From Rhodobacteraceae bacterium DSL-40 (GTDB taxonomy: Bacteria; Pseudomonadota; Alphaproteobacteria; Rhodobacterales; Rhodobacteraceae): DNA of 64,000 bases. The translations under genes were made by a program, and so were the position numbers. The notes beneath the pieces are model-generated. The model was not told the origin of the DNA. It worked only from the letters and a program-made list of their open reading frames with translations, and ran no database searches. Below, piece by piece: positions 23,538-63,083 of the stretch; the stretch's first letter is position 1; every line of letters starts with the position of its first letter. The stretch lies in the NCBI GenBank assembly GCA_003258405.1, contig QKPN01000002.1:434001-498000 (forward strand), written 5' to 3'.

Positions 23538-24593
23538 TCAGTCCGCAGAACCAATTGCATTGCGAAAAGCGGCAATGGTCAGTCCGAGGATTTCAGCATG
23601 GATCGCTTCCCGGGAGGTGCCGGTGCCATCAGTACAGATCGGATCCTCGATGCCTTCCTCAACGGCAATTTCGGCCGCGTTCGGCTTGCATTCCGGGAAC
23701 ATCGAAGCGTGACTGGCAGCCTTGATCACGTGGTAGGTTGCGCCAGGAATCGCGTCCGCGATCCCTGAGGCCTGAATGGTCTCTGGAATCTCGGACGCCT
23801 CGCCCAGGTTCACGATGGAAACCGGAATCGAGACGTCAGCGAAGGATGCAGGGGCGAAGATATCTGCCGGTGCCGGGTCGATGGCCATGGCGAACCGGAC
23901 CCGGAGGTCCCTGTTGTCTCGTCCGGCGGCCTCCTTGTCCAGCGCGTGGAGATCGACGCCGCTCAGGCGCACCCACTCGCAAAGGGACGCATTGAGGTCG
24001 TCGGTGTCGCAATAGCTCGCGAAAAGCTCGGGATCGAGCCTGGCTCCAGCCATGGAAAGCGCGGAATTGCCACCCATGGACAGGCCCAGAACCCCTATCT
24101 GATCGCTCGCAACATGCGGATGAAACGTCGGGTCGTTCTCGATCGCGTCGAGCGTCTTCGAAAGATCGGACGGTCTCAGCCAAAGCTTCATGGTGTCTTC
24201 GGCCGAACGGTCCCGCCCCGTATTTCCGGGATGTGTGGGTGCCACGACGATGAAGCCGTCTCGAGCCAGCGGTGCCGCGATCCAGCTCATCGCGCCGGCA
24301 TGACCTGCCAGGCCTGCCCCGTGGGACAACAGGACAAGGGGGAATTTCCCTTCGCGTATCGGCGCACCCTGTCTGGCTGGCGTCCCCTCGAAAAAGATGG
24401 TCTCACCCACGGTCACGGTCTCGCCGCCCGCAGCGGCGGGGTACCAGATCATCACCTCCAGATCAGCGTCCCGTTCCTCGGAGGCCACCGACATTCTCCG
24501 GACGCCCGCATGGTCGTCAGCAGCAAGCGTTGCCGCGCATGACACGAGCAGAATTGCCCCGGCGATGCTGGCCAATTCCGTCACTTTCTTCAT
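23538..24593 (-). CDS. Exported alpha/beta hydrolase (dienelactone hydrolase / PAF-AH-like)
   Basis: 351-residue hydrolase. Residues 1-25 form a signal peptide with a cysteine in SCAATLA that could be a lipoprotein site. The nucleophile elbow is GLSMGG; the oxyanion region is LLSHGAGLAGHAG, and a late SHASMF may hold the catalytic histidine. Overall it resembles the PAF acetylhydrolase-like group of predicted dienelactone hydrolases. I chose the ATG at 24593 because AGGAGACGCACG precedes it; the frame extends ten codons further. No operon partner. Substrate unknown. Confidence 0.78.
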   Translation of the reverse strand: MKKVTELASIAGAILLVSCAATLAADDHAGVRRMSVASEERDADLEVMIWYPAAAGGETVTVGETIFFEGTPARQGAPIREGKFPLVLLSHGAGLAGHAGAMSWIAAPLARDGFIVVAPTHPGNTGRDRSAEDTMKLWLRPSDLSKTLDAIENDPTFHPHVASDQIGVLGLSMGGNSALSMAGARLDPELFASYCDTDDLNASLCEWVRLSGVDLHALDKEAAGRDNRDLRVRFAMAIDPAPADIFAPASFADVSIPVSIVNLGEASEIPETIQASGIADAIPGATYHVIKAASHASMFPECKPNAAEIAVEEGIEDPICTDGTGTSREAIHAEILGLTIAAFRNAIGSAD

Positions 24594-24803
24594 CGTGCGT
24601 CTCCTGCTCGCCGGCGAGTTCATTGCCTGCGAACACCGCTAGAACAGTTGGTCATGTCCGCCAAGAGCGCACGTCCGCGGCGTCCCGAGGTTTACCGCAG
24701 ATCCGAATTCCGTCCGGATGGATAGAATAAATGCAAGGAGACATCGCAATTTCAATCTGGCCCGTAGCGCGTGTTCAGCGCCACTTGGCTGGTCTTTACG
24801 GAG

Positions 24804-25526
24804 TCACGCCAAGATCTCCCCGGTGCGGATCGCGACATGGATGGCTTGGGCCGTCGTGGTCACGCCGAGGCGCTTGCGGATGCGGCGCAGATGGTTCTCG
24901 ATGGTTCTTTCCGACAATCCGAGCGTGTCGGCGATCTCGACATGGCGCCGGCCGACGGCAATCCATGTCAGAACCTCGCGTTCCCGATCCGTCAGCGCGG
25001 TGGCAGCAGGCTTGTTTGCCCCTTCCAGCCGCGCCCGCATCGCGACAAAGGCTGCGCGCGCGATGATCTCCAAGGCCAGCTGGGTATGAAATGACGTGTC
25101 GATGCGCAGGCCGCCGAAACTTATCGCTCCTTCCAAACCTGTCGGGCCGAACACTGGCACCTGAAGTCCATGCACTCCCCGCCCACGCGGATGCCGCACG
25201 ATCCGGTAGCGTTCGCCCTCCGCATCCCTTGTCTTTGTCCAGAAGAACGACTCTCGGACCTCGGTGACATGCCGGTTGACCGGGCAGCGGCGCACATAGG
25301 CATCCGCATCGACGAATGAGCCATCCTCAAACCAATCGCCCTCAACCCAGTAGATGCGGTCGATGGGATCCTCGGCATTGGCGGACGCGGAAAATATCAG
25401 AAACCGGTCATATCCCATCGGGGCTGCGAAATCCCGGACCAGCACGCACAGCCTGTCCATGCTCTCTGCGCCCGCGAATGCGCGGGCGCAGGTAAATGCA
25501 TCCTCTGCCGGGGCAGAGCGCAGCAT
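24804..25526 (-). CDS. LuxR-family regulator (solo) with autoinducer-binding-type domain
   Basis: 240-residue regulator. Residues about 15-160 resemble the autoinducer-binding domain (MGYDRFLIFSAS ... IYWVEGDWFEDGSFVDADAYVRRCPVNRHVTEVRESFFW), but the usual Asp-Pro of AHL receptors is Cys-Pro, so the ligand may not be an acyl-homoserine lactone. The C-terminal helix-turn-helix is canonical (LTDREREVLTWIAVGRRHVEIADTLGLSERTIENHLRRIRKRL). No luxI-type synthase is in the window. The ATG overlaps the hchA stop as TGATG, so the regulator is made from the hchA transcript. Confidence 0.85.
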   Translation of the reverse strand: MLRSAPAEDAFTCARAFAGAESMDRLCVLVRDFAAPMGYDRFLIFSASANAEDPIDRIYWVEGDWFEDGSFVDADAYVRRCPVNRHVTEVRESFFWTKTRDAEGERYRIVRHPRGRGVHGLQVPVFGPTGLEGAISFGGLRIDTSFHTQLALEIIARAAFVAMRARLEGANKPAATALTDREREVLTWIAVGRRHVEIADTLGLSERTIENHLRRIRKRLGVTTTAQAIHVAIRTGEILA

Positions 25527-26362
25527 CAACGCGACAACTCACCCAAAAGGGCCTTGGCAGCCAATTGGCCCAGGGCGTTGCCGGCAAGCGGGCTGTCCCC
25601 GGTCAGCAGCCTGCCATCCTGGTGAACCGCTCCTGTGATGTCGTCGTTCATCAGCTCGAAACCCTTGGCCTTCAGCTCTTCTCCGAATTTCCAGGTCAGA
25701 TGGCCCGGCATGTAGCCGATATCCGGCGTCTGCGCGTCAAGCGAATCCGGGAAGGCGCAGATCTTCCGCCCGCGATAAAAATCGTCATCCTCGACAGCCA
25801 GGAATGCGGCAGGGCCATGGCACAGGGTGATGACAAAACGGTCCTCGGCCGCGGCCCATTTCAGCACGGCAGAGACATCCTCGCTTTCAGGCAAGCCGAT
25901 CAGCGCGCCATGGCCGCCCGGGATGAAGATGGCGGCGTAATGCTGCAACCCCTCTGCGATCACGTTCGCAAGCTTCAGCGGCTGTTTGAACCGGGGATGG
26001 TATTTCGCAAACAGGCCTTTGATGTCCTCATCCTCGGAGGGCATCGCCCAGAACTCGAACTTGACGGGGTTCCCGGAGATCGTGGCAACATCGAAATCAA
26101 ACCCGGCCCGGTCGAGATGGAACATCGGCGCGAGCGTTTCGACGGGATGGTTGCCGGTCGAGAAGAAGCTGCCATTGTCGGTCAGCAGATAGCGTTCATC
26201 CGCTCCGATCATCAGGATCTTCTTGTTGCCCTCATAGGGGGTCGGGTAATCGGCTCCCGACAGGTCAGATTTCGGAGAGGTAAACTGGCTCAGCGAATAA
26301 GCTGATGGGAAGAAGGCGTTTTCTTCCGCGGGATCCGGTTGCGGGGTCTTGTCGTCGCTCAT
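25526..26362 (-). CDS. hchA: Hsp31-type glyoxalase III / protein deglycase
   Basis: DJ-1/PfpI-superfamily protein that converts methylglyoxal to lactate and acts as a holdase or deglycase under stress. At 278 residues it aligns along its length with E. coli Hsp31: [42 protein letters not shown] (with the metal-binding His and Glu), [16 protein letters not shown], and the catalytic Cys-His in LCHGPAAF. I chose ATG at 26362; a GTG eight codons upstream is possible. It is followed by a translationally coupled LuxR gene, an unusual pairing that suggests the stress enzyme and regulator form one module. Confidence 0.93.
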
Positions 26363-26912
26363 GATACAATCCGTCTTTTTCCACACCCGAGTAGAGTAAG
26401 ACCGACCCAGAAAGTTATCGATGAGGGATTTCCCTCAATGACGAGAGATACCTCTTGCGGACAGTGCGACCGAGCAGTTGAGGTCGTGACCTGACGCTCA
26501 GCGACTTTCCCATACCAGCTCACAGCGAGAAGGTGGCGTAGCTATACCTTCACAGCAAGCAGGTCTTTCTCGCTGCATACTGGGACGACACGGGCACCCG
26601 GAACTCTGATCGCAAGTAGGGTCGGTGAGCAGTCTAGGCGACTGGTTCGGGGATGGCAGTGTCCGATCCCCGACTATGAAATCGCCGAGCTTCTCATGCG
26701 AGGTCTCAAGGAGCGCATCAGTTTTACAGAGGGCAGCTTGAAGATTCCGTGATTATTGATGGTGCGCGACGGCAGTCTGGCCCCTTAGAGAGGGGACTTC
26801 GGTGATTGTAGTGCTGCGCCGCTGACCGTCCGCTTTGGGCAGGCTGACAAGCATGAGAGGCAGACTGCCTGACAGAAAAGGCAGAATTATGTGCAACCGA
26901 ATACCGGGGAAA
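26363..26912. other. Gene-poor, lower-GC stretch between hchA and tRNA-Pro
   Basis: 550 bases. No start-codon-bearing gene is supportable. One frame is open without an ATG from about 26480 to 26755 and reads like decayed coding DNA (ending DYEIAELLMRGLKERISFTE); I cannot assign it. Small inverted repeats are visible (CGGGGAT...ATCCCCG near 26650; AGGCAG-A-CTGCCT near 26860). The hchA promoter must lie at its left end. Position beside the 3' end of a tRNA suits an old integration site. Confidence 0.5.
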
Positions 26913-26989
26913 TGGTCGGAGTGAGAGGATTCGAACCTCCGACCCCCTGCTCCCGAAGCAGGTGCGCTACCAGGCTGCGCTACACTCCG
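26913..26989 (-). tRNA. tRNA-Pro (anticodon CGG)
   Basis: A 77-base cloverleaf on the minus strand. The acceptor stem is CGGAGTG/CACTCCG with discriminator A and an encoded CCA end at 26915-26913. The anticodon stem CCTGC/GCAGG closes the loop TTCGGGA, giving anticodon CGG. The T arm contains GGTTCGAATCC. The 3' end faces the gene-poor stretch to its left. Confidence 0.95.
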
Positions 26990-27131
26990 ACTAGGGCGGG
27001 TCTTTAATCCAACCGTCCGGCCAGTGCAACGCCGATTCGCACCGCTCTTGCCGTGTGGTTACGGGGCCGGCCGGCGGCCGCATGCCACGCGCGGGCCTTG
27101 TCTCGTCGCAGGCCGCTGGATAGACCGGGGC

Positions 27132-27758
27132 ATGAGAGAAACGTCGGACCAGGGACGGCGGCCCTACCACCACGGCAATCTGCGCGAGGCGCTGATCGAG
27201 GCGACCCTCGGGCTGATCGAGGCGAAGGGACCGCTCGGCTTCACGCTCGCGGAAGCGGCACGCCAGGCCGGCGTGAGCGCCGCCGCGCCCTACCGCCATT
27301 TCCGCGGCCGCGACGAGCTCATCGAGGGGGTCGCGCTCAAGGGCTTCGAGATCTTCGCCGACCAGCTCGAGGCGGCCTGGAACGATGGCCACCCGACATT
27401 GCTCACCGCCTTCTTCGCCGTCGGCCGCGCCTATCTCGATTTCGCCCGCAGGAATCCCGGCTATTACATCGCGATGTTCGAGAGCGGCGTCTCGATCGCC
27501 GGCAACCCGGATCTCGCGCGCGCCGCCGATCGCGCGATGGGGGTGCTGCGCGAGGCCGCCGAACGGCTCGCCGCGCACCTCCCGCCCGGCAAGCGCCCGC
27601 CCTCCGGCATGATCGCGAATCACGTCTGGGCGCTCAGCCACGGCGTCGTGGAGCTCTTCACCCGCGGCGCGCCCGGCGCCCGCGCGCCCTATTCCGCCGA
27701 CGAGATGCTCGAGAGCGGCACGGCGATCTACCTCCGCGGCCTCGGCCTCATCTCCTGA
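27132..27758 (+). CDS. TetR-family regulator
   Basis: 208-residue TetR-type regulator. The DNA-binding domain is YHHGNLREALIEATLGLIEAKGPLGFTLAEAARQAGVSAAAPYRHFRGRDELIEGVALKGFE. The C-terminal ligand domain includes NPGYYIAMFESGV and NHVWALSHGVVELFTRG, the WHG-type group. I chose the ATG at 27132; an ATG 36 codons upstream would add a segment lacking family similarity. It converges on the ABC permease gene with a 7-base gap, so its target is not clear from position. Confidence 0.87.
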   Translation: MRETSDQGRRPYHHGNLREALIEATLGLIEAKGPLGFTLAEAARQAGVSAAAPYRHFRGRDELIEGVALKGFEIFADQLEAAWNDGHPTLLTAFFAVGRAYLDFARRNPGYYIAMFESGVSIAGNPDLARAADRAMGVLREAAERLAAHLPPGKRPPSGMIANHVWALSHGVVELFTRGAPGARAPYSADEMLESGTAIYLRGLGLIS

Positions 27759-27765
27759 ACCCGCC

Positions 27766-28527
27766 TCAGTTCCGCGGGCCCGCCCGGCGCTCGAGCGGCT
27801 TCACGATCAGATACTCGATCGCCAGCATCACCACGACGAAGCTCAGCGAATAGGCGAGCACATGCGCCACCTCGAAGAGCTGGAAATAGAGGTGGATCTG
27901 GAACCCCACCCCGCTCGAGCGGCCGAGGAACTCCACCACCAGCACGATCTTCCAGATCACCGCGAGCCCGTTCCGCACGCTCGCCGCGAGGAAGGGCGCG
28001 AGCTGCGGCAGCAAAACGTGGCGGAAGCGCGTCCAGCGCGACAGCCGGTAGACCTGCGCCATCTCCGCGATGCCGCGGTCGAGCACCAGCATCCCCTCGC
28101 GCACCGTCACCGCCACCATCGCGATCTTGTTGATCGAGACCGAGGTGATCGCCGCGACCTCGTTGAGCCCGATCCAGAGATAGCAGAGCACGATCACCAC
28201 GAGCGCCGGCAGATTGAGGAAGACCACCACCCAGGGGTCGGCCCAGCGATTGAAGCGCGGCCAGGCCCCAAGCGCCATGCCGAGCGCCGTGCCCAGCAGC
28301 ATCGAGATGAAGAAGGCCGCCGCGACCCGCAGGAGCGTCACCGAAACGTGGTGCAGCAGCGCGCCCGAAAGGAATTCGGCCTTCGTCACCTGCCAGACCT
28401 CGAGCGGCGAGGGCAGCACGGAGGGATCGCCCTTCAGCACCGAAAGCAGGGCCCAGAATGCGATGAGCGCGCCGAGCGACAGCACCATCACTCGCGGATC
28501 CGCCCGGTTTTCACGACCCCTGGCCAT
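27766..28527 (-). CDS. ABC transporter permease, SsuC/TauC-like
   Basis: 253-residue inner-membrane permease of the nitrate/sulfonate/taurine ABC family: about six helices and the EAA-type loop MAQVYRLSRWTRFRHVLLPQLAPFL. No ATPase or binding protein is adjacent. The matching ATPase (39122-39769) and NMT1/SsuA-like binding protein (39741-40715), also on the minus strand, lie 11 kb away across the xox genes and have no permease of their own, so I infer that the three form one transporter. Start ATG at 28527; ten further codons upstream are open. It diverges from the NosR-like gene. Confidence 0.85.
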   Translation of the reverse strand: MARGRENRADPRVMVLSLGALIAFWALLSVLKGDPSVLPSPLEVWQVTKAEFLSGALLHHVSVTLLRVAAAFFISMLLGTALGMALGAWPRFNRWADPWVVVFLNLPALVVIVLCYLWIGLNEVAAITSVSINKIAMVAVTVREGMLVLDRGIAEMAQVYRLSRWTRFRHVLLPQLAPFLAASVRNGLAVIWKIVLVVEFLGRSSGVGFQIHLYFQLFEVAHVLAYSLSFVVVMLAIEYLIVKPLERRAGPRN

Positions 28528-28671
28528 GCCTTGTCCTCCCGGCCGGCAGTCTTTCACGCCCCCGCGCCGCGAGCCATGGGGAATCCGGCCCCCCCGCTAT
28601 CAGACCTTCGTAGAATACCTGTGCGCGGCCGCCTCTGGTTAGGTGCGGAAAAAACAGGGAGGAAATGGGAA

Positions 28672-30804
28672 ATGCGCGCGCAGGTCTTCCTGGCCCCGCT
28701 GCTCGCCCTGCTGCTGTTCGCGGCAACGGGCGCGATGGCGCTCGAACGCGCGGATCTCGCCCCCTTCGTGAAGCCGCCGATGTCGATCGGCAAGGCCGTG
28801 AACGACAAGGGCGTCTACGAGCTGCTGAATTCCGGCGGCGCGCTCGCCGGCTATGTCTTCGAGACCGAACAGCTCGCGCCGCTTCCGGGCTTCTCCGGCG
28901 CGCCGATCAACGTCTTTGTCATGCTCGATCTCGACGGCCGCTTCCTTGATGTGAGGCTCATCTCACAAAACGAGCCGATCTTCGTCTCCGGCCTTGGCGA
29001 GGCGCCGTTCCGCAGGTTCTTCGAACAGTATCGCGGCCTCTCCATCACCGCGCCCATCGTCGTCGGCACCCAGTATGGCGGGCACGAACGCGGCGGATCG
29101 CTCGTCTACATCGATGGCGTCACCAAGGCGACCGCCAGCGTGCGCATCGCCAACGAAACCATCCTCGCCGCCGCCCTCGCCGTCGCCCGCGACAAGATGC
29201 AGGGCATCAAGTCCGGCCCCCCGGCGCGCCCCGACCCCGAACATGAGGAAGACCTCACATGGTCGGATCTCGTCGATCAGGGCCTCATTTCGCACCTCGA
29301 GGTGACGAATGCCGAGATCGGCGCGGAATTCGCCGGCACCCGCTGGGCCGATGACGATCCGGAGGCCGAAGCCGACCCGGAGGGCGTCTATCTCGACCTC
29401 TGGGTGGCCGATCTCGGCCCCGCCTCCATCGCCCGCACGCTGCTCTCCCCCGCCGCCCTGAAGGAGCTCGCGGCCTTCGAGGCGATCAGCCCCGATGACG
29501 AGCCGCTGCTGATGATCGACACCGGCCGCCACGGCCTCGTCTCGCCGGATTTCGTGCGCAACACCGCGCCCGACTGGATTTCCGCCACCCAGGACGGCCT
29601 GCCGGTGGCGCTCCGCGATGCCGACATCTTCGTGAGCCTCGCCGACGACGTGCCCGCAGAGCTTCACGACGGCGCCGCGATGATCCTGCGCACCGACCGC
29701 CGCCTCGGCTTCGATCCCACCCGCGAGTGGCAGGTGGAGGTGAAGGCGGTGCGCGAGCACGGCATCTTCCAGCCCGAGCCGGGCTCCGTCACCCTCACCC
29801 TGCCGCACAGGACCGACGAACGCTTCTTCATCCGCGACGCGGCCCCGGTCGCCGCCCCCCCGTGGCTCGAGGCGCTCCGCAACCGCCAGACCGACCTCGT
29901 CCTGCTCGGCGCGGGGCTCGTCGGGCTCTTCGGCGTGCAGCTCTTCGGCATGCGGCGGCTCGCGGCCCACCCGCGCTACCCGCTGATCCGGCTCGCGACG
30001 CTCGCGGTCGTGCTCGGCTTCATCGGCTGGCATGGCCAGGGCCAGCTCTCCATCGTGACCCCGCTCGCCGCCCTGCGCGCGGCCCTCGAGGGCGGCAGCT
30101 TCGCCTTCCTGATCTACGATCCGTTCTCGCTGCTGATCTGGGCCTTCGTGCTGGTGAGCTTCGTGCTCTGGGGCCGCGGCCTCTTCTGCGGCTGGCTCTG
30201 CCCCTTCGGCGCGCTGCAGGAATTCGCCGACCGCCTCGGCCGCCTCCTGCGCCTGCCCCGGATCGAGCCCTCGCCGCGCTGGGATGCGCGGCTGAAGAAG
30301 CTCAAGTATGTCGTGCTCGCGGCCCTCGTCGCGACGGTCTTCCTCGCCCCCGCCGCGCTCGACAAGGCGGTCGAGGTCGAGCCCTTCAAGACCGCGATCA
30401 CCGTCTATTTCGTCCGCAACTGGTATTACGTCGCCTATGCCGTCTTCTGGCTGGTGCTCGGCATGATGCTCTTCAAGGGCTTCTGCCGCTATGTCTGCCC
30501 GCTCGGCGCGCTGATGGCGCTCGGCGGCCTGCTGCGCGGGCGGAACTGGATCGCGCGGCGCGCGCAATGTGGCGCGCCCTGCCAGCTCTGCAAGGTCCGC
30601 TGCCGCTACGGCTCCATCGCGAAATCCGGCCGGGTCGACTATTCCGAATGCTTCCAGTGCCTCGATTGCGTGACGATCCACGACGATCCGGCGCAATGCG
30701 TCCCCCTGATCCTCGACGCCCGCGGCCGCCGCCCGGCCAACGCCCGCCCCCCTGGAAGCCCTCGCCCGACCACCCCCTCCGACGCCGGCGCCCTCCCGAC
30801 CTGA
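28672..30804 (+). CDS. NosR/NirI-family flavin and Fe-S membrane protein
   Basis: 710-residue membrane protein. A signal peptide (about 1-25) leads a periplasmic FMN-binding domain; its flavinylation site reads DGVTKAT (148-154), a variant of the SGAT motif. A long periplasmic part follows to about residue 405, then several helices interrupted by CGWLCP (506-511) and CRYVCP (605-610) and a cytoplasmic tail with ferredoxin-like cysteines (C633, C637, C640, C644, C660, C663, C666). This is the NosR/NirI architecture, which passes electrons across the membrane. No nos or nir genes are nearby, whereas xoxG/xoxJ/xoxF follow, so a role in the methanol system is inferred. GGGAGGAAATGGGAA precedes the ATG. 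The proline-rich C-terminal tail looks unstructured. Confidence 0.85.
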   Translation: MRAQVFLAPLLALLLFAATGAMALERADLAPFVKPPMSIGKAVNDKGVYELLNSGGALAGYVFETEQLAPLPGFSGAPINVFVMLDLDGRFLDVRLISQNEPIFVSGLGEAPFRRFFEQYRGLSITAPIVVGTQYGGHERGGSLVYIDGVTKATASVRIANETILAAALAVARDKMQGIKSGPPARPDPEHEEDLTWSDLVDQGLISHLEVTNAEIGAEFAGTRWADDDPEAEADPEGVYLDLWVADLGPASIARTLLSPAALKELAAFEAISPDDEPLLMIDTGRHGLVSPDFVRNTAPDWISATQDGLPVALRDADIFVSLADDVPAELHDGAAMILRTDRRLGFDPTREWQVEVKAVREHGIFQPEPGSVTLTLPHRTDERFFIRDAAPVAAPPWLEALRNRQTDLVLLGAGLVGLFGVQLFGMRRLAAHPRYPLIRLATLAVVLGFIGWHGQGQLSIVTPLAALRAALEGGSFAFLIYDPFSLLIWAFVLVSFVLWGRGLFCGWLCPFGALQEFADRLGRLLRLPRIEPSPRWDARLKKLKYVVLAALVATVFLAPAALDKAVEVEPFKTAITVYFVRNWYYVAYAVFWLVLGMMLFKGFCRYVCPLGALMALGGLLRGRNWIARRAQCGAPCQLCKVRCRYGSIAKSGRVDYSECFQCLDCVTIHDDPAQCVPLILDARGRRPANARPPGSPRPTTPSDAGALPT

Positions 30805-30967
30805 GCGGCGGGTGGGTGCGAAGGTTTTAGGAAGGCCCCTGCTGAACTCCAAGCTCGAAGTGTCAGATCCTGCTCAATGTCGAGACCCACGCCATAGACT
30901 TTGAGCTAAAACGCCGTCAGAATTTATGAGACATTGTAAATTTATTAAGCCGCCAAAGGAGTGAATA

Positions 30968-31603
30968 TTGCAGTTTCTGACAACGACAAATGTCTATGGC
31001 CCCGGTGACCACTATAAAGAAGCGTTTCTTGAAATAGTTAGGCAACCACCTGAAGGGGTAATCGTTTTAGACGGCAACGCAGGGCTGGGCGCAGACTGGC
31101 CCGCTGGAATTTGGAAGAGTATTGAGGGCGCGGCAGTCGCACTTGCTATACTATCGGCGCCGTCCACGATTAAGGACAATTGGCCAATCTGGAGAGATAT
31201 TTTCGATAATATTGCACAAAAAATAATGCAATTTCATGGTGAATATAGAATTGATCGAGACAGTGCTCAGATCATTGCGATGCATCACGCGGTCGATAAC
31301 TTCGGAATAGATCCGCATCGCCTCTCCATCCATATGGCAATACGTCATTACTATACGGCAGCAGCTGGATATCAAGATCTACTCCTAGAAGATCGCGTCG
31401 ATATGGATTGGAGTGAGGACGGTGAGATCGGTTCAGAAGCATTTTCACGTGGTGTGCGCAGCAACGAGGAAGCGGCTCGCCAGGCCCGATGCCGATATAT
31501 TTTTGGGATAGAAGATCAAGCCAAATGTATCACAATAGTAGTTGAGCAAGACGGAATAATTTCAATGTCAAAAGAGATGAATATGTGTAGTGACTGGAAA
31601 TGA
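30968..31603 (+). CDS. Unrecognised AT-rich orphan gene with TTG start
   Basis: 211-residue soluble protein that I cannot place in a family. Its base composition is strikingly AT-rich against its neighbours and it uses codons such as ATA, AAA and TTT that the flanks avoid, indicating recent transfer. The start is a TTG at 30968: an in-frame stop precedes it by two codons and AAAGGAG lies six bases upstream, so the choice is firm. Visible features are an N-terminal mixed alpha/beta part (GVIVLDGNAGLGADWPAG), a helical middle with several His/Asp residues (AMHHAVDNFGIDPHRLSIHMAIRHYY) and an acidic C-terminal part. No signal peptide or membrane helix. It separates the NosR-like gene from xoxJ. 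Confidence 0.7.
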   Translation: MQFLTTTNVYGPGDHYKEAFLEIVRQPPEGVIVLDGNAGLGADWPAGIWKSIEGAAVALAILSAPSTIKDNWPIWRDIFDNIAQKIMQFHGEYRIDRDSAQIIAMHHAVDNFGIDPHRLSIHMAIRHYYTAAAGYQDLLLEDRVDMDWSEDGEIGSEAFSRGVRSNEEAARQARCRYIFGIEDQAKCITIVVEQDGIISMSKEMNMCSDWK

Positions 31604-31634
31604 TTTTCTCTTTATTTTTATGTAGACATAAATA

Positions 31635-31916
31635 TTATATGAATAATATTGAGATAAGACGCGGAGAACAGGTAGCAAGGATCTCAAAGATTTGATCTAA
31701 TCTCCCAGAAGCAATGATGTTTAAGTGGCAGAAAACTCGTGATTCTTCCAAAATTCCGCCGCTCACGAATAGTATAGCGCACACCACTTCCGTCGAACCT
31801 TTCCGGGTCAGATGCCAATCGCCCCGACGCAAAAGCCAGATCTGCCCCTCTGCATCGGGCGTAATTCCCCCCGCCCTCAAACGGCCAATGCCGCCCCCTC
31901 TCAGGGCGGCATTCAT
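31635..31916 (-). CDS. Possible 93-residue protein starting at the repeat element
   Basis: A weak candidate. The frame begins MNAALRGGGIGRLRAGG at an ATG three bases after the -10-like sequence of the intergenic element at 31912, so any transcript would be leaderless or nearly so. Residues about 24-40 (EGQIWLLRRGDWHLTRKG) look like the wing of a winged-helix protein, but the rest is not recognisable and runs into AT-rich DNA, as if the true 3' part had been replaced. No ribosome binding site. Confidence 0.3.
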   Translation of the reverse strand: MNAALRGGGIGRLRAGGITPDAEGQIWLLRRGDWHLTRKGSTEVVCAILFVSGGILEESRVFCHLNIIASGRLDQIFEILATCSPRLISILFI

Positions 31917-32001
31917 GATATGTTAACTACGAAAATCCAGCAATTTCAAAGGGGATTTCGGATTTTCACGGTGAAAAGGCCGCCTTTCACCGTGAAAATC
32001 C
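31912..32001 (-). repeat. Intergenic element, copy 1 (hairpin plus promoter-like core)
   Basis: A 28-base core (31912-31939, containing ATATGTTAACTACGAAAATC) is identical to one at 54329-54356 in inverted orientation. Both are followed by ATTTCAAAG and TTTTCACGGTGAAA. On the minus strand it holds TTGAAA (31944-31949), 18 bases, TAACAT (31920-31925) and then ATC-ATG. The distal end is a long hairpin (arms 31960-31979 and 31983-32001, one bulged base) downstream of the xoxJ stop, a likely terminator. It thus looks like a terminator-promoter cassette. Confidence 0.75.
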
Positions 32002-51016: not shown

Positions 51017-52306
51017 ATGAAGCACATACGGCCGGTACCGGGCATGGACGCGCCTTCGGACGACACGACTGCGCAGACAAGGCCGGGCGCGCGGCGGCGC
51101 TGGCGGCGCGCCGCTGGCCTTGCCGCCCTCCTCGCCCTCCTGCTCGGTGGCGGTATCGCCTACCGTGCAAGCCTCGCGGGCGCGCCCGGCCCGGAGGTCA
51201 TGACCGCGCCGGTGGTGCGTGGCGACATAGAGGATGCCGTGCTGGCGACCGGCGTGCTGAAACCCGCCCGGCTCGTCGCGGTCGGGGCGCAGGTCTCGGG
51301 CCGGATCACCCGTCTCGCCGTGGCGATCGGCGACGAGGTGAAGGCCGGCGATCTCATCGCCGAAATCGACTCGATCCCCCAGAAGAACGCGCTCCGCACC
51401 GCCGAGGCATCGCTCGCCGAGGTAAAGGCCCAGAAGGCGGAGAAGGAAGCCACGCTCGGCAATCTCGAGCGCACACTCGCCCGCCAGACGGCGCTGGCCG
51501 ACCGGCGGACGATTGCGCAGGCCGATCTCGAAACCGCCCAGGGCGATGTCGCGGTCACCAAGGCGCAGATCGAGGCGCTCGATGCTGGGATCGCCGCGGC
51601 CGAGGTTGCCATCGAGACCGCGCGGGTCAATCTCGGCTATACCCGCATCACCGCCCCGATCGACGGAACCGTGCTCGCGGTCAGTGCCCAGCAGGGCCAG
51701 ACGGTCAACGCCGCCCAGACCACGCCCACCATCGTCGTGCTCGGCGATCTCGACACGATGGCGGTCCATGCCGAGATTTCCGAGGCCGATGTGACCCGCG
51801 TCGCGCCCGGTCAGGAGGTCTATTTCACCATCCTGGGCGATCGCGGCACGCGCTATTCCGCGAGTCTTGCCTCGATTGCGCCCGCGCCCGAGTCGATCAC
51901 CGAGGATTCGAGCCTCGGTCTCACCGGCACCGCCTCCGCCTCGTCGACCAGCACGAGCGCGATCTATTACGACGGGATCTTCGAGGTGCCGAACCCCGAC
52001 CGGCATCTGCGCACCTACATGACCGCGGAGGTCCATGTGGTGCACGCGAGCGCCCCGGACGTGCTTGCGATTCCCCTCACGGCGCTCGGCCCCGCAGCAG
52101 CGGACGGCAGCCGCACCGTGCAGGTTCTCGGGCCGGATGGCACGATCAGCACCCGCCGGGTCGAGACCGGCGTCATGGACAGGAGCAATGCCGAGGTGCG
52201 CAGCGGGCTTTCCGAGGGCGAACGTGTGGTCATCGGCACGGGCACCGGCGCAGGGAGTGCTCCGGCCGCCGGGCCGCGCATGCCGCGCGCGCCGATGGGG
52301 CTCTGA
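51017..52306 (+). CDS. macA: MacA-type periplasmic adaptor of a tripartite ABC pump
   Basis: 429-residue membrane-fusion protein. One N-terminal membrane helix (about 33-50, GLAALLALLLGGGIAYRA) after a basic tail, a biotinyl-lipoyl half (GQVSGRITRL-like ALVGAQVSGRITRLAVAIGDEVKAGDLIAEID), a long alpha hairpin (about 115-195), then LGYTRITAPIDGTVLAVSAQQGQTV and beta-barrel domains. I preferred ATG 51017 (GAGG six bases upstream) to ATG 51005. Together with the fused ATPase-permease 12 bases downstream it forms a MacAB exporter for macrolides, peptides or siderophores; the outer-membrane partner is not in the window. Confidence 0.88.
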   Translation: MKHIRPVPGMDAPSDDTTAQTRPGARRRWRRAAGLAALLALLLGGGIAYRASLAGAPGPEVMTAPVVRGDIEDAVLATGVLKPARLVAVGAQVSGRITRLAVAIGDEVKAGDLIAEIDSIPQKNALRTAEASLAEVKAQKAEKEATLGNLERTLARQTALADRRTIAQADLETAQGDVAVTKAQIEALDAGIAAAEVAIETARVNLGYTRITAPIDGTVLAVSAQQGQTVNAAQTTPTIVVLGDLDTMAVHAEISEADVTRVAPGQEVYFTILGDRGTRYSASLASIAPAPESITEDSSLGLTGTASASSTSTSAIYYDGIFEVPNPDRHLRTYMTAEVHVVHASAPDVLAIPLTALGPAAADGSRTVQVLGPDGTISTRRVETGVMDRSNAEVRSGLSEGERVVIGTGTGAGSAPAAGPRMPRAPMGL

Positions 52307-52318
52307 GGGAAAGACGGC

Positions 52319-54268
52319 ATGGCCAGCGCACCGCTTATCTCGCTCCGCGGCATTTCGCGCGCCTATCCTTCGGGCGAGCGAATGGTCTCCGTGCTCCGCG
52401 ATGTCGATCTCGACATCCGGGCCGGTGAGATGATCGCGATCGTCGGGGCCTCGGGCTCGGGCAAGTCGACGCTGATGAACATTCTCGGCGGGCTCGATCA
52501 GCCGAGCACCGGCACCTACCGCTTTGCCGGGCGCGAGACCGCGCATCTCGATGCCGACGAGCTGGCCGCGCTGCGGCGGGAGCACATCGGCTTCATCTTC
52601 CAGCGCTATCACCTGCTCCCGGAGCTCACCGCGCAGGAAAACGTCGAGATGCCGGCGATCTATGCCGACCGGCCGGCCGAGGCGCGCGCGGACCGGGCCC
52701 GCGCGCTGCTCGAGCGGCTGGGGATGGGCGAGCGGCGGCAGTACCGGCCGGGCCAGCTTTCGGGCGGGCAGCAGCAGCGGGTCTCGATCGCGCGCGCGCT
52801 GATGAACGATGCCGAGGTGATCCTCGCCGACGAACCGACCGGCGCGCTCGACAGCCGGAGCGGGGCGGAGGTGCTGAACATTCTCAGCGAGCTCCATGCC
52901 GAGGGCCGGACGGTCATTCTCGTCACCCATGACATGGAGATCGCGAAACGCGCCGGGCGGATCATCGAGCTGCGCGACGGCGCGATCATCAGCGACCGCA
53001 CCCTCGGGGACGCGCCCCTGCCCCGGATCGGGCAGGCGGTGCGGCGGGGTGCGGAGGGCGGGTTCGGGCTTGGCCGGTTCGGCGAGCTCTTCCGCATGGC
53101 GCTCCTGACCATGCGGGCCCACAAGCTCCGGACCTTCCTCACCATGCTCGGGATCATCATCGGCATCGCCTCGGTGATCTCGGTCGTCGCGCTCGGCGAG
53201 GGATCGCGGCAGAAGGTGCTGGCCGAGATCTCCAGCCTCGGGACCAACACGCTCGAGATCTTTCCCGGCGAGAGCTTCGGCGACGTGCGCTCGAACAAGG
53301 TCCGGAGCCTGGTGATCGCCGACGCCGACGAGATCGCGCGGCAGCCCTATGCCGCGGCGGTGACGCCGAGCGTGACCGCGAGCACGCGGGCGCGGCGGGA
53401 CAATATCGAGGCGACGGTGCAGGCAAATGGCGTCGGCGCGGGCTATTTCGAGGCGCGCGGGGTGAAGCTGGTGGCCGGAAGCCTGCTCGAGCCGGCCGAT
53501 ATCGCCGATCTGGCCCAGGTCGCGGTGATCGACACGGGCACGCGGGATGCGCTCTTTCCCGGCAGGACCTCCGAGGAGGTGCTGGGCGAGGTCATCCTGC
53601 TCGACAAGGTGCCGGCACGGGTGATCGGGGTCGCCGATACCTCGGGCATGATGGGGCCGGCGGGCAGTCTGCGCGCCTTTCTGCCCTACACGACCGTCCA
53701 GTCGCGCATCGTCGGCTCGACCACGCTGCGCTCGATCACGCTCAAGGTGGCGGACGACACGGATGTGGCGCTGGCCGAAACGGCGGTGACCGAGCTTCTG
53801 ACCCGGCGGCACGGGGTGAAGGACTTCTTCGTCATCAATACCGACGACATCCGCCAGACCATCACCGCGACGACGGAAACCCTTACACTGCTCATCGCGG
53901 CGATCGCGCTCATCTCGCTTGTCGTGGGCGGGATCGGGGTGATGAACATCATGCTGGTCTCGGTCTCGGAACGGGTTTCGGAGATCGGGGTCCGCATGGC
54001 GGTGGGCGCGCGGCAGCAGGACATCCTCCGGCAGTTCCTCGTGGAGGCGGTGGTGGTCTGTCTGCTCGGCGGGGTGCTCGGGGTGGGGCTGGCGCTCGGG
54101 CTCGGGCCGCTCTTTGCGGCGGCGGGGTCGAGCTTCACGCTGATCTATTCGACCGGGCCGATCCTCGGCGCGGTGGCCTGCGCGAGCCTGATCGGGATCA
54201 CCTTCGGCTACATGCCCGCACGTAGCGCCTCGCGGCTCGATCCGGTCGCAGCGCTCAGCCAGGGATGA
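52319..54268 (+). CDS. macB: MacB-type ABC exporter, ATPase fused to permease
   Basis: 649-residue protein with all MacB parts. ATPase (1-230): Walker A GASGSGKS, signature LSGGQQQRVSIARAL, Walker B VILADEPTGALD, switch VTHD. Helix 1 (about 275-298, FLTMLGIIIGIASVISVVALG) is followed by a periplasmic MacB domain of about 240 residues and three helices at the C-terminus with the FtsX-like core VGGIGVMNIMLVSVSERVSEIGVRMAVGAR. It functions as a mechanotransmission pump with the MacA protein upstream. Confidence 0.92.
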   Translation: MASAPLISLRGISRAYPSGERMVSVLRDVDLDIRAGEMIAIVGASGSGKSTLMNILGGLDQPSTGTYRFAGRETAHLDADELAALRREHIGFIFQRYHLLPELTAQENVEMPAIYADRPAEARADRARALLERLGMGERRQYRPGQLSGGQQQRVSIARALMNDAEVILADEPTGALDSRSGAEVLNILSELHAEGRTVILVTHDMEIAKRAGRIIELRDGAIISDRTLGDAPLPRIGQAVRRGAEGGFGLGRFGELFRMALLTMRAHKLRTFLTMLGIIIGIASVISVVALGEGSRQKVLAEISSLGTNTLEIFPGESFGDVRSNKVRSLVIADADEIARQPYAAAVTPSVTASTRARRDNIEATVQANGVGAGYFEARGVKLVAGSLLEPADIADLAQVAVIDTGTRDALFPGRTSEEVLGEVILLDKVPARVIGVADTSGMMGPAGSLRAFLPYTTVQSRIVGSTTLRSITLKVADDTDVALAETAVTELLTRRHGVKDFFVINTDDIRQTITATTETLTLLIAAIALISLVVGGIGVMNIMLVSVSERVSEIGVRMAVGARQQDILRQFLVEAVVVCLLGGVLGVGLALGLGPLFAAAGSSFTLIYSTGPILGAVACASLIGITFGYMPARSASRLDPVAALSQG

Positions 54269-54275
54269 GGCCGCG

Positions 54276-54356
54276 ACGGTGAAAAGGGGCGTTTCACCGT
54301 GAAAACGAAAAAACGGCTTTGAAATCATTGGATTTTCGTAGTTAACATATCATGAA
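54276..54356 (+). repeat. Intergenic element, copy 2 (hairpin plus promoter-like core)
   Basis: Inverted relative to copy 1 at 31912. Hairpin ACGGTGAAA/TTTCACCGT (54276-54284 and 54292-54300) begins 8 bases after the macB stop. It continues with CTTTGAAATCATTGG and the core 54329-54356. TTGAAA (54319-54324), 18 bases, TAACAT (54343-54348), then ATC and ATG at 54352. Same order and same position downstream of a gene as copy 1, so it is not chance similarity. Confidence 0.75.
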
Positions 54357-54495
54357 CGGCAGGGGGATGCCCGCCTCCCTGCCCGGCCGGGCCGCGCGGG
54401 CGCGGCGGCCCGCCGATCGCCCGATCACGGGGTTGCGGGGCGTGGCGGGCTCCGGTTCAATCCCCCCTCGACGCACCCGAGCGGAGATGCCCAGC

Positions 54496-54969
54496 ATGAC
54501 CGACACGCCCGCCCTTCTCTTCGTCTGCCTCGGCAACATCTGCCGCTCGCCGCTGGCGGAGGCCGCGTTCCGCAAGGCAGCCGCCGAGGCCGGGCTCGCG
54601 GCGGAGGCCGATTCCGCCGGCACCGGCGACTGGCATGTGGGCGAGCCGCCCGACCGGCGCGCGCAGGCGACGGCCCGGCGGCACGGGATCGACATCAGCG
54701 GCTATCGCGGGCGGCAGGTGAGCGCGCGGGATTTCCACCGCTTCACCCATATCCTCGCGCTCGATCACGCCAACCTCGACAACCTTCGGGCGCTGCGGCC
54801 ACGGGACGCGACCGCGCGCCTGAGCCTGCTGCTCGATCATGTGCCCGGGCAGGAGGGCGAGGCGGTGGCCGATCCCTACTGGGGCGACGAGACGGGGTTC
54901 GACACGACCTGGGCGGAGGTGAGCGCGGCGGCCGAGGCGCTGGTCGCGAAACTTCAGGCCCGGTCGTGA
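54496..54969 (+). CDS. Low-molecular-weight protein tyrosine phosphatase
   Basis: 157-residue phosphatase with the P-loop CLGNICRS (Cys11, Arg17) at the N-terminus and the catalytic aspartate in VADPYWG. In bacteria this family dephosphorylates tyrosine kinases of capsule or polysaccharide export, or arginine-phosphorylated proteins. I chose ATG 54496, with GCGGAG nine bases upstream; an in-frame ATG at 54352, directly at the end of the repeat-element promoter, would add a 48-residue Arg/Pro-rich N-terminus of no known family. Overlaps the kinase-like gene by GTGA. Confidence 0.9.
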   Translation: MTDTPALLFVCLGNICRSPLAEAAFRKAAAEAGLAAEADSAGTGDWHVGEPPDRRAQATARRHGIDISGYRGRQVSARDFHRFTHILALDHANLDNLRALRPRDATARLSLLLDHVPGQEGEAVADPYWGDETGFDTTWAEVSAAAEALVAKLQARS

Positions 54970-55769
54970 GCGCGGCCTCGGAAGCCGCGGCGCTTCTCGG
55001 CTCACCGCTCCGCCGCACCGCGCGGCTCCATGGCGGCGATCTCTCGGAAGTGCTGGCGCTCGAGCTCGTCGACGGGCGCGAGGTGATCGCGAAGCCCGGC
55101 CCGACGGCGCGGGCCGAGGCCCGGATGCTGCGGGCGATCCGGGCGGCGGGGGCGCCCGCCCCCGAGATCCTGGCCGAGGACGACGGGTTGCTCGTGCTCG
55201 AGCTTCTGCCCGATGACGGCACGCTGGGCGAGGCCTGGGCAAGCCTCGGGGCGGTTCTGGCGCGGCTTCATGCGGCGCGCGGCGCGGGCTACGGCTGGCC
55301 GGAGGATCACCGCTTCGGCAGCGTGGCGATCCCGAACCGCGCCCTGGACAGCTGGCCGGAGTTCTGGGCCGAGCGGCGGCTTCTGCCCGCGCTGCCGCAT
55401 CTGCCCGCGCCGCTGGCGCGCCGGGTGGAGCGGCTGGCCGGGCGGCTTGGCGATCTGCTGCCGCGGGCGCCGGCGCCGGCGCTGCTCCACGGCGATCTCT
55501 GGTCGGGCAATGTGCTGGTGTCGGGCGGGGCGGTGAGCGGGTTGATCGATCCCGCCTGCTACCATGGCGATGGCGAGGTGGATCTCGCGATGCTGGCGCT
55601 CTTCAGCGCGCAGGGGCCGGAGTTTCGCGCCGCCTACGGGCCGGAGGAGCCGGGCTTCGCGGCGCGGCAGCCGGTCTATCAGCTCTGGCCGGCGCTGGTG
55701 CATCTCAGGCTCTTCGGCGCGGGCTATGCCGGGATGGTCGACCGGCTTCTGCGCGCGGCGGGCTGCTGA
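54966..55769 (+). CDS. Fructosamine-3-kinase-like phosphotransferase
   Basis: 267-residue protein of the fructosamine kinase/aminoglycoside phosphotransferase fold. LHGDLWSGN is the catalytic loop and LIDPACYHGDGEVDLAM the metal-binding DP(A/x) motif characteristic of fructosamine kinases, which remove early glycation products from proteins. GTG start at 54966 overlapping the phosphatase stop (GTGA). The pairing of a LMW phosphatase with a fructosamine kinase-like gene is common in bacteria and suggests linked protein-repair roles. Confidence 0.9.
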   Translation: MSAASEAAALLGSPLRRTARLHGGDLSEVLALELVDGREVIAKPGPTARAEARMLRAIRAAGAPAPEILAEDDGLLVLELLPDDGTLGEAWASLGAVLARLHAARGAGYGWPEDHRFGSVAIPNRALDSWPEFWAERRLLPALPHLPAPLARRVERLAGRLGDLLPRAPAPALLHGDLWSGNVLVSGGAVSGLIDPACYHGDGEVDLAMLALFSAQGPEFRAAYGPEEPGFAARQPVYQLWPALVHLRLFGAGYAGMVDRLLRAAGC

Positions 55770-55776
55770 GGCGGCC

Positions 55777-56937
55777 TCAGCCGCGGCCGCCGGCGGCGAT
55801 CTCGCGATCGACCCGGAGCGAGAGCGCGAAGGCGAGGCAGGAGACGGCGAGGCCGACGCCGGCCGCGGCCTGCCAGCCGCCGAGGCTCACGCAGGCGGCG
55901 AAGACCGGCGGGCCGAGCAGCGATCCGGCGGCGCCCGCCTGGGCGATGGCGCCGTTCGAGGCCGTGACATCGCCATCCGCCGAGAGCTGCGGCAGGCGGG
56001 CGAAGGCGAGCGCGGGGAAAATGCCCGAGACCATGTTGAGCCCGATGAAGAGCGCGGCGAGCAGCGGACGCGGCAGATCGAGGAAGAACGGGAAGACCGC
56101 GAGCGGCGGCAGGAGCAGCGCGGCGGCGAGGAGCGGCGCGAGGCTGCTGCCGCGGGCAAGGCGGCGGCCGAGGAGGAGCGGCGCGGCGGCGCCGGTGACG
56201 GTTGCGAGCGCACCGAGCCCGGTGAGGAGCCCCGCCCCCGCGACGCCGAAGCCGCGCGCGCCGACGAGATATTGCGGGGCCAGCGCGAGGAGGCCGACCT
56301 GGAAGCAGGTGAAGCCGCCGAAGCCGAGGGCGGCGATGACCGCGCGGCGCGACGGGCGGCGGGCCTCTGCCGCCCCCGGCGCGCCGGAGGGGAGGCGCAC
56401 GCGGGCGCCGAGCGCCAGGACCGCGCAGGCGAGTGCCGCCCAGAGCGCCAGCGCCGTGCGCCAGCCCCAGAGATCGGCGACCCCGCCCGCGAGCGTCGCG
56501 CCAAGCGCGATGCCGATGGCGACGAAGGTGCTCCAGATCGCGAGCGCCTGCCCGGCCCGGCCCCGCGGGGCGGCGCGCGCGATCAGCACCGGCGCGGAGA
56601 CGATCACCCCGAGATAGCCGAGCGCCTCGACGCCGCGGAAGGCGAGGAGCGCGCCGGCCCCCGGCGCCAGCGCCTGGCCGAAGCCGCCGAGGGCGAGGAA
56701 GACGAGGGCGAGCCGCAGGGTGCGGCGTTCGGTGAGCCGGGTGGCGAGGCGCGCGGCGCGGCTGCCGAAGAGCGCGCCGCCGATCTCGATCAGCGAGATG
56801 GCGATCGCGCCCGCGACGAGGCCGAGCCCGAGACCGGGGCCGATCGCGGGCATGAGCGGGGGCATCTTGCCGATCTGCGCGGCGGCGGTGATGCCGGCGA
56901 GAAAGACCCAGGCCTGGGTGCGGGTGAGGAGCGCCAT
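55777..56937 (-). CDS. MFS transporter regulated by adjacent TetR
   Basis: 386-residue major facilitator protein with about 12 helices (AWVFLAGITAAAQIGKMPPLMPAI; LIEIGGALFGSRAARLATRLTERRTLRLAL; RGVEALGYLGVIVSAPVLIARAAP). It follows the TetR gene in the same direction, so the pair is likely an efflux system with its repressor. I chose ATG 56937; a TTG at 56973 is also in frame. Substrate unknown. It converges with the fructosamine-kinase-like gene with 7 bases between. Confidence 0.82.
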   Translation of the reverse strand: MALLTRTQAWVFLAGITAAAQIGKMPPLMPAIGPGLGLGLVAGAIAISLIEIGGALFGSRAARLATRLTERRTLRLALVFLALGGFGQALAPGAGALLAFRGVEALGYLGVIVSAPVLIARAAPRGRAGQALAIWSTFVAIGIALGATLAGGVADLWGWRTALALWAALACAVLALGARVRLPSGAPGAAEARRPSRRAVIAALGFGGFTCFQVGLLALAPQYLVGARGFGVAGAGLLTGLGALATVTGAAAPLLLGRRLARGSSLAPLLAAALLLPPLAVFPFFLDLPRPLLAALFIGLNMVSGIFPALAFARLPQLSADGDVTASNGAIAQAGAAGSLLGPPVFAACVSLGGWQAAAGVGLAVSCLAFALSLRVDREIAAGGRG

Positions 56938-56976
56938 GCCGCGCTTCTGCACCGCGCCCCTGTCCGGGCGCAAGGT

Positions 56977-57573
56977 TTAGCCTTCGTCGGCGAGATAGAG
57001 CGCGATCATCCGGCGGATCTCGCTTTCGACCAAGCCGGCGGCGGCACCGGAGGCCGCGGGCGTGGCGGCGCCGGCAAGGGCGGCGAGCACGATCGCGGAG
57101 ATCATCGCGCGGGAGGCGGGCAACGGCGGCCAGGCCCGGGCGAGCGCCTCGGCGATGCGGGCGCGCAGGCGGTCGGCGGCGGCGCGCGCGGCCTCGGGGG
57201 GCGCATCGCGCCGGGCCGCGAGGGCGGCATGCGCCGGATGCGCCGCGGCATGGGCGAGAAGGGCGGTGAAGATCCGGTCGGCCAGCACAGGCGGCGCGCA
57301 GGCAGGTGTGCGCGCGGCGTCGATCGCGGCGAGGAGCGCGGCTTCGGCCTCGGATTCGAGCGCGGCGGCGAGCTGCTCCTTCAGCGGGAAATACTGGTAG
57401 AGCGATCCGATCGAGACCCCGGCCTCGGCGGCGATGGCGGTCATCGTGGTGGCGTCGTAGCCGTTGCGGACGAAGAGCGCCGCGGCGGTACGGCGCAGGA
57501 GGGCCGCGCGGGCGCGGCCCTTGGCGGTGCGGGGAACCCGGCCTGCGGGTGCTGTCTCGGCGGCGTCGGGCAT
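56977..57573 (-). CDS. TetR-family repressor
   Basis: 198-residue TetR-type regulator. DNA-binding part: [48 protein letters not shown]. The rest is very Ala-rich and helical with no recognisable ligand motif. It lies upstream of, and co-directional with, the MFS gene at 55777 and probably controls it and itself; the divergent RimK-fusion gene starts 117 bases away and might share the region. Confidence 0.88.
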
Positions 57574-57689
57574 GGCGGGGCTCCGCGATACGAGGCCTCT
57601 TTCCTATACCCGCGCGCGGCCGGACCGTCATCGGAATTGCACATGTTTCGCAGAGGGTCGGGCGCGCGGGACTGGCGGAGCGGCGGTGC

Positions 57690-60481: not shown

Positions 60482-60706
60482 GCGGCGGGGTCACGCGGAA
60501 AACGCGGGGCGTGTGGCGGCGGGCCGCTGGGCGGAGACCGGGACCTGCGCCGTTCCGCGGTCCATCCCGGTCCCTTCGGCGTGGGCCATGTGGGGGATGA
60601 TGACGGGAGGGCGCTCGGGCGCTGCCGCGCCCTGCCCCCTGCCCCTGCGGGTTGGGCCCGCCGGCTTCGACCGATCAGGCGGAGATCTCGGGCTTTCCCG
60701 CGGGGC

Positions 60707-61546: not shown

Positions 61547-61618
61547 TACCGCCTCCAGGGATGCCCGGGGGCCACAGTCGGACGGGTTGGTTAACGGAGT
61601 CTTTCCCGCACTGCGGGA

Positions 61619-62407: not shown

Positions 62408-62471
62408 CGGACGGCGGCTCCTCTGGCTCGGCGGGCTTCGCAGCCGCACCATCGGGGCACGGGGTGAAAAG

Positions 62472-63059: not shown

Positions 63060-63083
63060 CGCCGGTCTCCCGCCGTCATCTTC

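Follow-up and report, generated by a model that had tools for sequence, protein, structure and literature searches.

A dispersed, oriented intergenic element associated with local GC-skew tracts in a member of the Rhodobacteraceae

Strand asymmetry in bacterial chromosomes is usually attributed either to gene direction or to replication from a single origin along two replichores. Several described classes of DNA element offer partial parallels to the intergenic element analyzed here. REP/RAYT repeats resemble it as dispersed intergenic sequences that contain an inverted repeat, often lie 3' of genes, and are species-specific in sequence, whereas the present element is ∼80 bases long, has invariant boxes past its stem, is oriented with GC skew, and accompanies long tracts. 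An oriT/relaxosome shares an inverted repeat, an IHF-like site, strict polarity, and a one-way single-strand process; here, however, there are ∼60 chromosomal copies, the tract also covers 2–3 kb upstream, and no VirD2-type relaxase was found (PF03432, the one relaxase family searched, has 0 matches in this genome and in the sister genome G398 and is present in 4 of 11 genomes). Replication origins likewise combine binding repeats with an adjacent AT-rich segment, and GC skew changes at oriC as it does here, but the present elements number dozens per chromosome and are one-directional. Correia-type repeats are small interspersed repeats with promoter-like hexamers; our element differs from them in showing neither terminal inverted repeats nor target duplication and in losing the promoter spacing in sister species. 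Local regions of extreme GC skew have been reported in Alphaproteobacteria, with peaks in Rhodobacterales among them, and codon choice in core genes and GTA genes was given as at least part of the cause; the accessible part of that article names no element at the edges of skew peaks (PMC9836097). Our literature search found no paper linking such elements to tracts, a result that does not establish their absence from print.

The window, i.e. the whole 64,000-nucleotide stretch of DNA analyzed, contains two copies of the element. An earlier note had described a 28-base core occurring twice and, in both copies, the order hairpin, TTGAAA, 18 bases, TAACAT, ATC, and ATG, reading away from an upstream gene; both copies, this series, and its direction were found in sequence and place as described. 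The core at 31912–31939 (+) equals 54329–54356 (−) with no differences, and TTTTCACGGTGAAA is present at 31963–31976 (+) and at 54305–54292 (−). In line with the note's view that the element is no chance product, shuffled sequence gave a mean of 0.00 matches to the core even when 3 mismatches were allowed. The full element is ∼80 bases and exceeds that core. Its direction is taken as away from the upstream stop codon, in the order stem, TTGA, GTTAAC.

Copy 1 (31911–31990, −) comprises the stem, a third GTGAAA, the TTGA box, and a GTTAAC-ATATCATGAAT segment, and it points away from a gene called xoxJ in the earlier note (stop at 32079, Pfam SBP_bac_3). Its inverted repeat at 31971–31990 (−) consists of GTGAAA (31990–31985), an 8-base loop, and TTTCAC (31976–31971); the third GTGAAA at 31964–31969 (−) makes TTTCACCGTGAAA with the right stem arm. 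The TTGAAA box, which resembles an IHF half site or a −35 hexamer, lies at 31944–31949 (−), and the GTTAACATATCATGAAT box lies at 31911–31927 (−). Copy 2 (54279–54357, +) points from the gene called macB, which has its stop at 54268 and a Pfam MacB_PCD match, to a low-molecular-weight phosphatase gene. It has an inverted repeat at 54279–54297 (+; GTGAAA at 54279–54284, a 7-base loop, TTTCAC at 54292–54297), a third GTGAAA at 54299–54304 (+), a TTGAAA box at 54319–54324 (+) that is again IHF half site-like or −35-like, and a GTTAACATATCATGAAC box at 54341–54357 (+). When the whole window was searched against Rfam, the sole match at gathering score was a tRNA at 26916–26989; the element matches no family, and a known structured RNA was rejected on this ground. 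An AT-rich reading frame of 211 aa at 30968–31603 (+), flanked by copy 1 and a Fer4_5 membrane-protein gene, has no Pfam match, is skipped by the codon model, and looks foreign.

The element forms a genome-wide family in fixed order, inverted repeat first, that extends far beyond two copies, in agreement with what the earlier note had suggested. In the 190-contig assembly, the core was found at 32 places when up to 3 mismatches were allowed (10 of them exact) and TTTCACGGTGAAAMGCCC at 59 places with up to 1 mismatch; reversed control patterns gave 0 matches for both. A sequence-only profile of the whole element, built from 59 aligned copies, returned 59 matches with E ≤2e-11, one at 3.6e-6, and five at 0.007–0.06. 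The parts of the element are the inverted repeat GTGAAA/TTTCAC, the third GTGAAA, a TTG box, and GTTAACATATCATGAA. In the alignment, the 5' part is laid out as GTGAAA-N7/8-TTTCAC-C-GTGAAA, ∼15 variable bases, and [CT]TGAWW, and the 3' part as 17–18 variable bases followed by TTAACATATCATGAAT or a variant. The boxes are nearly invariant and the spacer is much more variable, with two main subfamilies that differ in spacing by one base. A perfect stem (GTGAAA/TTTCAC) is present in 57 of the 59 copies compared with 5% in shuffled flanks. These 59 rows were picked by operator or core searches, which partly builds in the intactness of those boxes; the outer stem arm lies outside both the core and the TTTCACGGTGAAAMGCCC search patterns. 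The 13-bp palindrome is intact in all 30 core-selected copies listed, out of 32 places, and TTGA is separated from GTTAAC by 21–22 bases in 43 of the 46 distances found. Within 1 mismatch of an IHF consensus are 16 of 59 TTGA boxes (12% expected), and the IHF-like site is poor in most copies, with 2 or 3 mismatches in 43 of 59. Four further loci, L231, L232 (C1), L100 (C114:300 kb), and L101 (C158), look like decayed or partial copies that keep the palindrome or the TTGA box.

With genes called by our own simple codon-usage caller, 20 of the 59 copies lie between convergent genes, 17 and 14 in the two co-directional settings, 7 between divergent genes, and 1 at a contig end. The position at gene 3' ends that the note had seen in the two copies recurs often: 38 of the 59 copies have a gene running into their stem end, at a median gap of 23 nt, and for 20 of 20 convergent pairs it is the stem end that lies closer to its stop codon. 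Folding is stronger in the 50 nt that follow the element than in bases 150–200 downstream, a difference qualified by the higher G+C content of the first 150 bases after the element.

The note had also proposed a leaderless transcript starting at the ATG. This did not hold; the frame from the ATG runs for 3 to 501 codons without a coding signal, its score per codon is no better than that of another frame, and the ATG is replaced by ATT in 3 and by GTG in 1 of 59 copies. The ATG thus opens no conserved frame, and the idea that it starts a small protein or a leaderless gene was rejected. A promoter for the next gene was not supported either: of 58 next genes, 24 read in the element direction and 34 against it, and a regulon promoter was rejected on these orientations. 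On sequence grounds a σ70 promoter is doubtful too, because TTGA and GTTAAC are 21–22 bases apart here, 34 in G398, and 23 in the sister genome G400; the 16–18-base spacing expected of −35 and −10 hexamers is kept within the subfamilies of this genome and not across relatives, the distance being inconsistent in G396.

A mobile origin of the element is possible. Under one account, which we consider unlikely, it is a passive, non-autonomous repeat of 80 bases whose insertions go to gene 3' ends and which comes to rest, facing one way, where skew tracts of other origin have their upstream edges. The ∼60 copies, the absence of the operator pattern from the other 10 genus genomes, the small number of divergent gene pairs (7 of 58), and the weaker, seemingly decayed matches would all fit such a repeat, and REPs too are described, in the part of the source available, as sitting mostly between convergent and unidirectional genes (PMC3733652). 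Set against this are the lack of a target duplication (flank repeats of 2–9 bases are no commoner than in re-paired flanks) and the lack of a Y1 (HUH) transposase. PF01797 was found in 0 of 11 genus genomes, this one included and some of the assemblies being incomplete, and in 5 of 14 members of a control set. The almost invariant boxes beside a drifting spacer also weigh against it. By eye, neither foot of the stem carries GTAG or CGTC, the tag found at one end of the 20–40 bp REP palindrome; CGTAG precedes TTAAC in part of one subfamily only. An IS-derived MITE was rejected on the absence of target-site duplications and of terminal inverted repeats, the latter judged by eye in the alignment.

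Local GC skew (measured over up to 3 kb) is positive in the element direction at 58 of 59 loci, and this holds in each gene context: 20/20 convergent, 14/14 and 16/17 co-directional, 7/7 divergent, and 1/1 at a contig end. By the 3-kb measure on three joined contigs, 24 of 24 elements are positive compared with 192 of 393 ordinary gene 3' ends, and a gene 3'-end artefact was rejected on this comparison. Replichore polarity was rejected on the alternation of element orientation within contigs. A KOPS- or Chi-like polar oligonucleotide was also rejected; no single octamer is prominent, and a general G-rich bias is seen instead. Among the weak matches in this genome, skew is positive in 2 of 3. 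The association of the element with skew is strong; the mechanism considered below is inferred.

Long tracts were studied on 1.19 of the 4.37 Mb (joined contigs C103, C114, and C57), along which skew domains alternate. When the ten strongest minus-to-plus jumps were taken from each of C103 and C114, 9 and 7, respectively, lay within 4.1 kb of an element. The 4 of 20 jumps with no element inside 13 kb (C103:377 kb and C114:34.5, 121.75, and 210.5 kb) perhaps mark elements that were lost or went unrecognised. In a meta-profile, in which two double-palindrome elements are counted twice, skew is ∼0 upstream of −2 kb, +0.057 at −2 to 0 kb, +0.07 at 0 to 4 kb, and +0.01 at 24 kb. These two elements are counted once in the codon-position profiles and the tract score. 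The third-codon-position residual is +0.05 to +0.08 at −3 to −1 kb, +0.10 to +0.16 at −1 to +4 kb, and +0.08 to +0.12 at 4 to 20 kb, and it is near 0 by 26–28 kb; this corresponds to 3.2–6.1 control deviations in each of the bins between −1 and +20 kb, compared with 1.7–2.4 at −3 to −1 kb. Across 26 elements the tract score is 0.111, compared with a random mean of 0.003 (sd 0.017), and none of 2000 random site sets, 20000 sign flips, or 1000 random gene-end sets reached that value. Of these elements 25 are positive; two lie at contig ends, and their scores come mainly from the upstream part. Leaving out the two window copies gives 0.110. By eye, single tracts are ∼10–40 kb long.

The strand composition switches in a one-sided skew jump that lies 2–3 kb upstream of the element. 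Among the 24 testable elements, 18 gave a fitted tract start with a log-likelihood gain >6, at a median of −2.35 kb. In 11 of these 18 the start lies 2–3.7 kb upstream, and in the remaining 7 it varies between −10.2 and +3 kb. Random sites also exceed a gain of 6 somewhere in −4 to +1.5 kb at 108 of 400, and single fits are therefore only moderately specific. In the window, the polar tract of copy 2 covers 52190–64000 (+) and continues past the window end; the fit, with a gain of 44.4, puts its start 2.1 kb before the palindrome, on the upstream side. For copy 1, the first 8 kb downstream (23960–31964, −) have a third-position skew residual of 0.131 in the element direction, and the change point is not significant (gain 2.4). 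One element, at C114:224392, has no tract, and tracts are weak at the diverged copies C103:548905 and C57:20820; across elements, tract strength and element score show no significant correlation (Spearman 0.34, p 0.11).

The shift is seen in genes of both strands and therefore looks mutational. It is largest at third codon positions and smaller at first and second positions, and T over A mostly rises along with G over C downstream, with noise. At four-fold codons, compared with genes outside tracts, G is up in same-strand genes and C is up in opposite-strand genes, and A and T both fall in genes of either strand; a plain C-to-T change does not predict loss of both A and T. The fraction of same-strand coding is 0.42–0.58 per bin from −4 to +24 kb, except for 0.65 at −2 to 0 kb. 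On this balance, together with the shift in opposite-strand genes, a gene-direction artefact was rejected.

The element profile also gave weak matches (E 9e-5 to 0.1) in six other genomes (G401, G396, G398, G400, G395, and G402). The sister elements come from these matches and do not amount to a census (three loci in G400), and since the profile covers the TTGA region, that box is partly built in; the stem in G398 lies outside all match ranges in that genome and hence is not. The anatomy in G398 is CGTGGGC-N-GCCCACG-CGTGAAAACC, often with TCAAGCCATTGAT, and GTTAACG 34 bases after TTGA. In G400 it is TTTCGCRC-GCGAAA with 23 bases from TTGA to GTTAAC, in G396 it is GTTCACGCGTGAA, and in G401 most loci have GGCGTTTCACGATGAAACGC or near variants. 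The match in G402 lies inside a gene and is not an element. The G398 stem (GTGGGC/GCCCAC, one G-T pair allowed) is perfect in 13 of 15 rows, one of them a duplicate, compared with 2% in shuffled flanks, and full pairing occurs in 1 of 3 loci in G400 and 3 of 7 in G396. The TTGA-GTTAAC distance is 34 in 14 of the 15 G398 rows (one duplicated), 23 in 3 of 3 in G400, 34 in 1 of 1 in G395, and inconsistent in G396. At most 1 mismatch to the same IHF consensus was found in 15 of 15 G398 rows and 8 of 10 in G396 (4–5% expected in these two), and in 3 of 3 in G400. As judged from these alignments, sister species share the architecture with different stems, and the stem re-pairs between species. At two G396 loci, L209 and L214, the element is of another kind, in which GTCCCACAGTGRGAC and a TGAA box are followed by DnaA-box-like TTATCCACA sites, and skew is positive at both; five others (L205, L208, L210, L213, and L234) share an extra 3' segment, CACACTRCACGAC or close to it, and are inconsistent in polarity.

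Skew is positive in the element direction at 11 of 11 loci in G398, 3 of 3 in G400, and 1 of 1 in G395, compared with 7 of 11 in G396, 5 of 10 in G401 (no polarity), and 0 of 1 in G402. Around 6–7 G398 elements on four contigs, skew is 0.001 at −6 to −4 kb, 0.015 at −4 to −2 kb, 0.076 at −2 to 0 kb, and ∼0.09 at 0 to 4 kb; further upstream the mean is 0.03–0.06, and on the largest G398 contig four same-direction elements lie on an almost uniformly negative background. The recurrence in G398 of architecture, polarity, and jump with another stem would not be predicted by independent insertion of a mobile repeat at tract edges.

These results also bear on a reading in which TTGAAA-18-TAACAT is a promoter from which termination-resistant transcription runs ∼25 kb through both gene orientations and leaves a mutation bias. 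In favour of this reading, the bias has the right sign, with G over C and T over A in the sense strand, and both subfamilies keep the TTG and the 17/18-base distance to TAACA. However, the bias at −1 to 0 kb is as strong as downstream, tracts start 2–3.7 kb upstream in 11 of 18 strong fits, and the box distance of 34 in G398, about one helical turn more, breaks promoter spacing. We consider such transcription improbable. That the element predicts the sign of a tract and its near edge, and that this recurs in a relative whose stem is re-paired and whose box distance is about one helical turn longer, points instead to a protein-DNA complex that would start or anchor a one-way process.

Tentatively, we prefer to read the elements as dispersed, oriented nucleoprotein sites: a one-way chromosomal process would begin at such a site, or close to it, and over evolutionary time would leave a tract with strand bias. 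A protein specific for the inverted repeat would bind or nick at the element, and an IHF-like bend at the TTGA box would bring it to the GTTAAC-ATATCATGAAT segment. Unidirectional DNA synthesis, strand peeling, or transfer could then proceed downstream, with the element-sense strand exposed from ∼2–3 kb upstream to some 10–40 kb downstream. Trimming back upstream from the nick would leave the same strand single and could thus give the same sign to the upstream 2–3 kb, which a two-sided break would not; a double-strand break with two-sided resection would require opposite signs on either side, which were not seen, and was rejected by this reasoning. In a more specific version, dozens of oriented secondary start sites per chromosome would each launch recurrent one-way replication or single-strand production over ∼25 kb, with the species-rewritten inverted repeat being recognised; this we regard as doubtful. 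Weighing against start sites are the fitted tract starts, mostly 2–3.7 kb upstream and not at the element, the lack of polarity in G401 and its partial presence in G396, the element-free jumps, the elements with a weak tract or none (copy 1 among those lacking a significant change point), the missing correlation with element score, the poor IHF-like site of most copies in this genome, the loss of both A and T at four-fold sites, and the absence of a PF03432 relaxase. No DnaA-like box was found near the copies in this genome, a result of little weight since 0.1 would be expected by chance.

An inverted repeat beside IHF-like sites resembles the anatomy of oriT and cos. The element could be a pac-, cos-, or oriT-like site from which DNA is packaged or passed between cells, leaving one-way in fragments of up to some tens of kilobases and returning by recombination, an account to which we give little credence. 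A one-way tract of limited length suits it, and imprecise first cuts could account for the starts at −2 to −3 kb. It is opposed by the variable tract lengths and by the missing PF03432 relaxase, and RcGTA-type agents, in the part of the source available, package small random pieces without sequence specificity (PMC7947584).

Dispersal and polarity would also suit a site that organises the chromosome, parS/KorB-like or KOPS-like, by loading a protein onto DNA or orienting it there. To this may be added TTTCACSGTGAAA, which we take to resemble the 13-bp S-centred KorB operator and parS. In G398, however, the third GTGAAA does not copy the stem, and the palindrome is therefore not general; element orientation alternates within contigs, unlike KOPS, and no single octamer explains the skew. 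Proteins that act at such sites are not known to leave strand-specific mutations, and we regard a site of this kind as very improbable. A ParB search gave three ParB_N matches in the genome, one of them (below the cut-off) beside a copy, with no clear link. At L014 (C13:96117–96422), a ParB_N-like domain below the cut-off belongs to a 289-aa gene convergent with one element copy.

As far as these patterns show, the family is restricted to this genome. The core was found in 1 of 295 family genomes, and the operator pattern in 2 of 394, at 68 places in this genome and 1 place in one other; among the 11 genus genomes it occurs in this one only. The genome_contigs collection, from which this genome may have been left out, gave 0 stretches with the operator pattern and, for the double palindrome, 1 Mesorhizobium place without the other boxes. 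Viral contigs gave 2 stretches with the operator pattern and 0 with the core. A family-wide box pattern matched 14 of 394 genomes, 13 of these with a single match, which is near chance.

In these results, both the sign of local strand asymmetry and its near edge can be predicted from a short element, whatever the gene direction. If the elements cause the tracts, these bacteria would have an unrecognised one-way DNA process, and local GC-skew peaks would be a readable map of its start sites; dispersed start sites, if real, would explain at least some such peaks. If the elements are not causal, the choice by a repeat of tract edges, one-way at 58 of 59 loci, still needs explaining. A second question is how the stem came to be rewritten from one species to the next throughout nearly all copies in a genome.

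Skew jumps comparable to those above are also present in 400 kb of the sister genome G130, in which no element was recognised; synteny there (18 reciprocal best hits) is too low for a site-by-site comparison. The strongest, at 160.5 kb on C1, is a sharp divergent switch from −0.3 to +0.2 in third positions. The same G130 contig carries another intergenic repeat, TTTCTCCCCGCCTG..GTTTCTGCCCATATGAAAAC, with three copies in one orientation at 95218, 131410, and 168195.
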